From positions 3,906,001-3,970,000 of the forward strand of contig NZ_CP066370.1 of NCBI RefSeq assembly GCF_016406325.1: 64,000 nucleotides of DNA, given 5' to 3'. Below, one piece after another: positions 26,870 to 27,388 of the stretch. A program made the translations under genes and the position numbers. Source of the stretch: Shewanella putrefaciens. Its GTDB lineage: Bacteria; Pseudomonadota; Gammaproteobacteria; Enterobacterales; Shewanellaceae. Position 1 is the first letter of the stretch, and each line of letters opens with the position of its first letter. Below the pieces are notes generated by a model that did not search any database, was not told the origin of the DNA, and worked only from the letters and a program-made list of their open reading frames with translations.

Positions 26870-27061
26870 TCAATCTGTATTACCTTTGTAATCAGCTCAG
26901 AGGGTTCCTCTGGTCCACTTTCATCCTAAACATCAGGATGCGCTACCGGACTACGCTAATCACCGTCAATCTGTATTACCTTTGCAATCAGCTCAGAGGG
27001 TTCCTCTGGTCCACTTTCATCCTAAACATCAGGATGCGCTACCGGACTGCGCTAATCACCG
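26870..27061 (-). repeat. Two tandem 96-bp degenerate tRNA-Pro copies (A, B)
   Basis: Copies 26870-26965 and 26966-27061. On the minus strand each begins with the first 28 or so nucleotides of tRNA-Pro (through the D arm), then an altered anticodon region with a hairpin of ATCCT and AGGAT, then GGACCAGAGG shared with the 3' anticodon arm, a CAGAGG/CCTCTG hairpin, and the 15-nt spacer GGTAATACAGATTGA that also precedes each true tRNA-Pro. The acceptor complement, T-arm and CCA are missing, so they cannot be functional tRNAs. The two copies differ at only two positions. Confidence 0.9.
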
Positions 27062-27078
27062 TAAATTGTAAACTATTT

Positions 27079-27096
27079 GCTTAATCTAGATTAAGC
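27079..27096. repeat. 18-bp perfect palindrome between repeat block and second tRNA-Pro
   Basis: GCTTAATCTAGATTAAGC lies in the only unique stretch (27062-27117) of the repeated tract. It could be an RNA hairpin cleaved during tRNA processing or a weak terminator; nothing shows which. Confidence 0.45.
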
Positions 27097-27117
27097 TCGC
27101 TAGTTATGCGAAGAATT

Positions 27118-27194
27118 TGGTCGGTGATAGAGGATTCGAACCTCTGACCCTCTGGTCCCAAACCAGATGCGCTACCGGACTGCGCTAATCACCG
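27118..27194 (-). tRNA. tRNA-Pro (anticodon TGG), proximal copy
   Basis: Identical over 77 nt to the copy at 26793-26869, with paired acceptor, anticodon TGG, T-arm and encoded CCA. The duplicate lies between two pairs of degenerate copies, so the locus has expanded by tandem duplication of a tRNA-Pro plus spacer unit. Confidence 0.95.
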
Positions 27195-27388
27195 TCAATC
27201 TGTATTACCTTTGTAATCAGCTCAGAGGGTTTCCTCTGGTCCGCTTTCATCCTAAATATCAGGATGCGCTACCGGACTGCGCTAATCACCGTCAATCTGT
27301 ATTACTTTTGTAATCAGCTCAGAGGGTTTCCTCTGGTCCACTTTCATCCTAACTATCAGGATGCGCTACCGGACTGCGCTAATCACCG
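27195..27388 (-). repeat. Two tandem 97-bp degenerate tRNA-Pro copies (C, D)
   Basis: Copies 27195-27291 and 27292-27388. They have the same structure as copies A and B, with one extra T (GGGTTTCC on the plus strand) and a few substitutions in the altered anticodon hairpin. The tRNA-derived 5' segment is intact, while the 3' half of the tRNA is missing or remodelled. They lie between tRNA-His and the proximal tRNA-Pro, where E. coli has leuT. Confidence 0.9.

Follow-up and report, generated by a model that had tools for sequence, protein, structure and literature searches.

Structured elements derived from tRNA-Pro precede tRNA-Pro(UGG) genes in Shewanella, Vibrionaceae and further families

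The four units that accompany two tRNA-Pro genes in Shewanella putrefaciens belong to an element type that, judged from the genomes compared, is old and widely shared, being found upstream of tRNA-Pro in many marine bacteria, and is neither recent nor Shewanella-specific. Sequence comparison supports their descent from tRNA-Pro, and they appear to represent a structured RNA family absent from Rfam 15. The reading we favour, at a probability of roughly 0.45, is that the units are an ancient tRNA-Pro-derived leader or spacer which is cotranscribed with the tRNA and released by processing, and whose self-folding shields tRNA-Pro from the tRNA-identical part of the unit. The units lie in the 64,000-nt stretch analysed here (the window; contig NZ_CP066370.1, positions 3,906,001 to 3,970,000), to whose minus strand all window coordinates below refer.

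On the minus strand, tRNA-Arg(ccg) and tRNA-His are followed by U1, U2 and a tRNA-Pro(tgg); after 56 nt of spacer come U3, U4, the second tRNA-Pro(tgg) and a strong terminator. The first gene of the operon, tRNA-Arg(CCG) (27539..27615), and the tRNA-His(GUG) gene upstream of the units within the operon (27411..27486) were identified by ARAGORN, and the two tRNA-Pro(UGG) genes (27118..27194 and 26793..26869) by ARAGORN and Rfam. Together with sequence comparison, these results bear out the two true tRNA-Pro genes and four 96- or 97-nt units described in an earlier note on this DNA. A scan of the minus strand between 26650 and 27850 found a single intrinsic terminator, 3' of the last tRNA-Pro (26747..26793), and none between the genes of the operon, so that cotranscription of the units with tRNA-Pro, proposed in the same note, is very likely. 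No promoter-like site of the default type was found in this interval by a simple scan.

U1 (27292..27388, 97 nt) shares its first 29 nt with both window tRNA-Pro genes, which agrees with the proposed preservation of about 28 nt of the tRNA 5' end. U2 (27195..27291, 97 nt) lies immediately 5' of the first tRNA-Pro and is 97% identical to U1; U3 (26966..27061, 96 nt) and U4 (26870..26965, 96 nt), the latter immediately 5' of the second tRNA-Pro, are each 95% identical to it, and U4 deviates from the tRNA at one base of the shared 5' part. The leader thought to be common to all copies precedes U2, U4 and both tRNA-Pro genes and is absent before U1 and U3. Read along tRNA-Pro, a unit keeps nt 1-28, after which about 20 nt take the place of the anticodon-arm 5' strand and loop. 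The view that only the 5' half of the tRNA survives is refuted: the units also retain 3' strands of two further helices, GGACCAGAGG from the anticodon arm and CCTCT from the T-stem, and these two strands pair with each other. The acceptor complement, T-arm and CCA had all been considered lost; the CCA and T-loop are indeed missing from the sequence, but the T-stem 3' strand is present and the fold provides a substitute acceptor complement, GTGATTAGC paired with GCTGATTAC. All window units carry the core GYGGACCAGAGG, followed by a hairpin with CCCTCT, and a 5' part like the host tRNA-Pro, and are placed directly, or one to two units, upstream of tRNA-Pro(UGG). They lack the 3' CCA and full acceptor stem expected of a tRNA (RF00005), and neither ARAGORN nor the RF00005 covariance model, by which the true tRNA-Pro genes score 68.5 bits, calls them as tRNAs.

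The predicted fold of the window units is a three-way, tRNA-like shape that includes a new acceptor-like helix; z-scores range from -3.6 to -5.5 (U1, -34.3 kcal/mol, z -5.44; U2, -36.0 kcal/mol, z -5.50; U3, folded with one extra 5' base, z -3.56; U4, z -4.34). As each of the four, U3 again with its extra base, folds better than 200 of 200 dinucleotide shuffles, the fold is not due to chance. It consists of the acceptor-like P1 (9 pairs), P3 atop P2, and P4 beside P1. In U2, the P1 5' strand (nt 3-11, GUGAUUAGC; 27281..27289) is predicted to pair with 27221-27213, and six inner pairs of this helix were counted in the co-variation analysis; its 3' strand, the substitute acceptor complement (nt 71-79, GCUGAUUAC; 27213..27221), is placed by the fold and the pair count. 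The helix thus begins at nt 3 with a new partner and leaves bases 1-2 unpaired. The P2 5' strand (nt 15-19, GUCCG; 27273..27277), formerly D-loop, pairs in the fold with 27243-27239 (CGGAC), and two of its pairs have changed on both sides. Fold and pair count likewise place the P3 hairpin (nt 26-44; 27248..27266), which occupies the remodelled anticodon-arm region, and the P4 hairpin (nt 54-69; 27223..27238), in which the anticodon-arm 3' strand CAGAGG is joined with the T-stem 3' strand CCUCUG.

Support for these helices from other Shewanella units is modest. In A1, a set of 23 Shewanella units, two-sided changes were seen in 5 pairs, as many as in 2 of 500 shuffles, and 91.1% of cells are paired versus 89.8% in shuffles; P1 is largely broken in 5 of the 23. 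Swap tests with 14 Shewanella representatives gave modest backing to P3 (49/2000), P2 (118/2000) and P1 (139/2000). P1 did not hold across all 40 representatives (331/2000), and two further pairings were rejected for Shewanella: P5, which joins the second part of the insert (S2) with the tail (1553/2000 with the 14 representatives), and the D-stem, which is 91% paired yet shows no excess over shuffles. In one extra Shewanella unit, the minimum free energy (MFE) fold places the D-stem within a 5' hairpin and shows no P5.

In order to find relatives, a model built from Shewanella units (R1) and a short core pattern were used to search outwards, and a second model (R2) was derived from 38 units, of which two come from family f11, one from Ferrimonas and most from Vibrionaceae. 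We chose the cut-offs ourselves: at least 36 bits for R1, which gave 30 Shewanella genomes, E ≤ 5e-7 for R2, which gave 7 more, and E ≤ 1e-6 for R2 in Vibrionaceae. They exceed the scores of identifiable true tRNA-Pro genes, which are about 23-33 bits for R1 and, by inference, about 46 for R2. Units of family f12 reach only 46.5 bits with R2, the level of a true tRNA-Pro, and were recognised by eye. Family f21 was taken as Vibrionaceae because its unit at L070 (G342) is identical, with equal scores, to that of the Vibrio locus L127.

The core pattern matched 56 loci in genome contigs, 45 of which have a tRNA-Pro(tgg) at most 900 nt downstream; among the other matches, 3 are truncated by the end of the locus or by a stretch of N (in Shewanella, Vibrio and Photobacterium) and 8 are unrelated. 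Units occur in Shewanella, Ferrimonas, Vibrio, Photobacterium, Enterovibrio and Grimontia as well as in families f11, f25 and f12. Both models together place them in about 37 of 129 Shewanella genomes, and R2 in 58 of 150 Vibrionaceae genomes (7 of 13 genera), with up to 13 matches per genome; these genome counts are rough, since Infernal's strict filters lose weak units in large searches, and the 37 Shewanella genomes were only in part inspected singly, the match in G125 (L068) being a T-arm-bearing unit of the kind described below. The survey of other Shewanella suggested in the earlier note has thus turned up related units upstream of tRNA-Pro(UGG); its proposal of a recent or homogenised amplification stands as regards homogenisation, but a recent origin does not fit a unit type common to several families. 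Presence is patchy. Most tested Shewanella and Vibrionaceae genomes have no detected unit, and the unit is therefore dispensable.

As to position, 109 of 118 plain-type units lie upstream of tRNA-Pro(UGG), and the remaining 9 are at a locus edge or without tRNA-Pro behind them. The operons are of the types Arg-His-Pro and Pro-Arg-His. One of the latter, Pro-Arg(tct)-His, is found in the S. putrefaciens genome itself, where a fifth unit, diverged and 86% identical over nt 1-76, precedes a third tRNA-Pro gene (genome position 1592313-1592437; L009:1314-1486). At a locus of family f12 (L155) five near-identical tandem units stand before one tRNA-Pro and one before another. We also considered a mobile origin and rejected it: no exact pattern match was found in viral contigs, and neither a Vibrio unit searched against plasmids nor a window unit searched against phages gave a match.

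For the structural comparisons we assembled 139 distinct unit-like sequences, omitting 22 repeat loci, the 8 unrelated pattern matches, matches overlapping ARAGORN tRNAs and, as a duplicate, L127. Removal of 16 unparsed sequences, 2 with N and 11 that fell to a crude T-arm rule left 110; by eye, 5 of these 11 are plain units (L054:1500, L058:1500, L064:1500 and two of L076). Representatives of the 110 formed test sets of 40 or 54 (all lineages) and 38 (Vibrionaceae-type). Over the 54, the mean z-score is -2.15 (range -0.1 to -5.2).

Vibrionaceae and Shewanella units differ in their folds. Most Vibrionaceae units are predicted as two hairpins, with L075, L078 and L087 among the exceptions. In the first (P0), the 5' acceptor strand and D-arm would be closed by the first part of the insert (S1); in the second, long hairpin (P5), the second part would pair with the tail and enclose AGCGGACC and P4. 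When duplex energies of the 38 Vibrionaceae-type units were compared with those of swapped strands, none of 5000 swaps was as good for P0 (5' end with S1) or for P5 (S2 with tail), and 16 of 5000 were for the D-stem, while P4, P3 and two control pairings gave no signal, P4 and P3 at any identity level. Among 11 units less than 80% alike the values were 18/5000 (P0), 39/5000 (P5) and 634/5000 (D-stem), and among 8 units less than 75% alike 205/5000, 246/5000 and 75/5000, respectively; the longest-helix form of the P5 test gave 366/5000. A2 contains 11 pairs with two-sided changes, which 9 of 500 shuffles reach, and 39 two-sided cells versus 16.2 in shuffles (0/500). Its weak spots are the inner three P5 pairs, formed in only 47% of cells, and a P0 pair formed in 17 of 38 units. 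As several tests agree, none of which models the tree, the structure of Vibrionaceae-type units seems to be under selection, as judged by co-variation, with a weaker case in Shewanella.

Other helices were unsupported in the Vibrionaceae-type set: P2 (D-loop with GGAC) gave 1895/2000 and P3 also failed in swap tests. A switching of S2 between P3 and P5 in all units was dropped, as the two helices are backed in different lineages. The window units do not adopt the two-hairpin fold, preferring the P1-P4 three-way fold, despite matching R2 at 54-61 bits. Among nine units from further genomes, MFE folding gave two hairpins in three of four f11 units; the fourth, two f25 units and two f12 units lack this fold.

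The 5' part of a unit follows the tRNA of its host. Over 105 units compared without gaps, identity to the host tRNA-Pro in the first 28 nt averages 87% (lowest 25%), so the free decay of the 5' half that the earlier note had named as a mark of passive pseudogenes is not seen in relatives. Base 7, although unpaired in the two-hairpin model, also matches the host: unit and tRNA agree there in 39 of 40 Shewanella units, in 58 of 62 units whose host has A7 and in 3 of 3 others. In family f25, the tRNA-Pro start CGGCGTTTAGCG also begins the units. The D-loop tracks the host tRNA less well. As host-matching 5' parts occur together with tandem copies that include the leader, the sequences point to concerted evolution by recombination or conversion with the tRNA gene. 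The core 3' of the insert is kept across families, and it too is partly tRNA sequence. In some Shewanella (L061, L063, L129, L023, L026, L030-L032 and L034) an anticodon-stem pair of tRNA-Pro(UGG) is altered (UCUGC/GCAGA); a matching GGAGCAG occurs in the units of L061, L063 and L129, and also in units of some hosts with the common form.

In a second kind of unit, seen for example in L054, L067, L068, L087, L091 and L123, the T-arm is retained and, in most, so is an acceptor end whose CCA is complete or reduced to a remnant. A simple rule assigned 21 of the 139 sequences to this kind; by eye, two of these (L076) are plain, and L105 and L125 were missed. At the loci seen, T-arm-bearing units sit between or behind tRNA-Pro genes, and they look like intermediates between tRNA-Pro and the window type. 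They can get mis-annotated as tRNAs: a 93-nt tRNA-Asn(gtt) called by ARAGORN at L072:1737-1829 resembles a T-arm-bearing, tRNA-Pro-derived pseudo-tRNA with acceptor ends and CCA.

We propose that a unit arose from tRNA-Pro(UGG) when a short insert remodelled the anticodon arm and the T-arm collapsed to a hairpin. By their position, units would be transcribed as a leader or spacer of tRNA-Pro. Release may occur through the RNase P cut expected at the following tRNA-Pro, together with trimming in the AU-rich tail. The earlier note also assumed cutting at the unit 5' ends, which looks unlikely, since the predicted fold leaves bases 1-2 unpaired and the unit has no CCA behind it. Recombination between identical 5' parts would amplify, delete and homogenise units, as tandem copies and host-matching 5' parts suggest, while selection, visible as co-variation in Vibrionaceae-type units and more weakly in Shewanella, would maintain self-folding. 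Its main effect would most likely be exerted in cis. The 5' part common to unit and tRNA makes the unit a potential rival for the tRNA 3' half; with its tRNA-Pro-identical segments folded away, it would not compete. The released structured RNA would then be a by-product, or have a second function beside self-folding in cis.

Folding computations support this effect in cis in part. Over 46 of the 54 representatives, those with tRNA-Pro directly behind, the predicted probability of the tRNA-Pro cloverleaf is 0.87 for the tRNA alone, 0.59 behind the unit and 0.42 when the remainder of the unit is shuffled (real versus shuffled, Wilcoxon p = 7e-9). Compared with a shuffled remainder, the self-fold of real units thus gives the tRNA better, if incomplete, protection; the shuffles were mononucleotide, and any stable remainder would help. 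The window itself argues against insulation. The minimum for U2 with its tRNA-Pro, at -66.1, is a chimeric cloverleaf that uses the unit 5' strand and lies about 2 kcal/mol below the sum of the two folded apart (-64.3), and the cloverleaf probability behind U2 is no better than with shuffles (0.43 and 0.43); L009, L062 and L100 are among other cases that are equal or worse. Insulation would need co-transcriptional folding, and folding during transcription would be expected to favour the sequential form. The core AGCGGACCAGAGGG is also conserved more than insulation requires.

In a reading that we consider unlikely, the released unit is a stable sRNA acting in trans, as a sponge, mRNA regulator or protein ligand, through the conserved AGCGGACC beside the P4 hairpin. 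Many units do fold strongly, their core is kept across families while adjoining sequence drifts, and the motif is mostly unpaired in many predicted Vibrionaceae-type folds. Against this, GGACCAGAGGG is tRNA-Pro sequence too, so that gene conversion may explain part of its conservation, and presence is patchy with no match to an Rfam family. Patchiness, a copy number that varies up to 13 matches per genome, 5' parts that match the host, degenerate T-arm-bearing relatives and the weak z-scores of a number of the 54 units would all be expected if the units were functionless tandem duplications of tRNA-Pro held alike by recombination. We give this passive origin little credence, as P0, P5 and the D-stem co-vary and as the type is common to several families at a position upstream of tRNA-Pro(UGG).

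The competition for the tRNA 3' half could itself be the function, with the 5' halves of unit and tRNA forming a two-state switch in the precursor that tunes tRNA-Pro maturation. The sequential and chimeric folds of the window are nearly equal in energy, the minimum of L009 is also chimeric, and the unit 5' part tracks the tRNA. We nevertheless judge such a switch improbable: the sequential fold is the minimum in 4 of 5 other precursors folded (L099, L112, L088 and L102), tracking is more simply explained by gene conversion, and no signal is known. A related and highly speculative idea is that the unit is a built-in competitor, whose 5' half would replace that of the tRNA to give a chimeric cloverleaf with a D-loop insert of about 100 nt, and whose selected self-structure would set how much of the tRNA-Pro precursor folds productively. 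If true, a pre-tRNA would contain a folding switch that acts in cis and has been conserved in several families. On present evidence we retain the self-folding leader or spacer as the best explanation.

The units lie hidden in tRNA operons, where annotation tools are blind and spacer RNAs are usually deemed waste. They combine two evolutionary modes in one element of about 95 nt, whose 5' part becomes homogenised with the host tRNA and whose 3' core, with co-varying helices, persists across families. They also make it testable whether leaders and internal spacers of tRNA precursors give stable RNAs, and how nearly identical half copies immediately upstream of a tRNA gene are tolerated. At gathering score, Rfam 15 matches no family but tRNA in the window and in 12 Vibrionaceae loci; below threshold, YrlA is among the best matches to the unit region (19.5 bits versus 69 required). 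A literature search, with most subscription papers outside its scope, gave no title or abstract describing the units, and the string GCGGACCAGAGGG is absent from the papers whose text this search covered.

A repetitive tRNA(Pro)-tRNA(His) cluster of Photobacterium phosphoreum was reportedly described by Giroux, Beaudet and Cedergren in 1988, and is said to be the subject of Giroux and Cedergren in 1989 as well. Its operon type is the one seen here, and a Photobacterium-type cluster in our set (L157, genus inferred), with seven tRNA-Pro genes, two tRNA-His genes and about ten units, strongly resembles it, so that the repeats were probably visible there earlier. The rtT RNA behind E. coli tyrT has repeats that resemble the tRNA 3' end and lie downstream. 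The earlier note had likened the units to it, and the situation is indeed similar, with repeats of tRNA similarity in a tRNA operon. The likeness extends no further: the units keep the 5' part and sit upstream, and they match no Rfam family but tRNA.

Like tRNA-Other of Bacillus cereus, a pseudo-tRNA that flanks a genomic island and is poorly aminoacylated in vitro, the units would be a tRNA-like RNA outside translation; unlike it, they have no CCA or T-loop and lie inside a tRNA operon (PMC3399842). A tRNA-precursor spacer that may be excised as a separate RNA also recalls the 3' ETS of leuZ in E. coli, an sRNA sponge with shown targets, which is a 3' spacer, whereas the units are leaders or internal spacers (PMC8166272). 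Stable 5' ETS or ITS RNAs from tRNA precursors are given as unreported in this 2021 review, and a stable RNA from the units would therefore be notable (PMC8166272).
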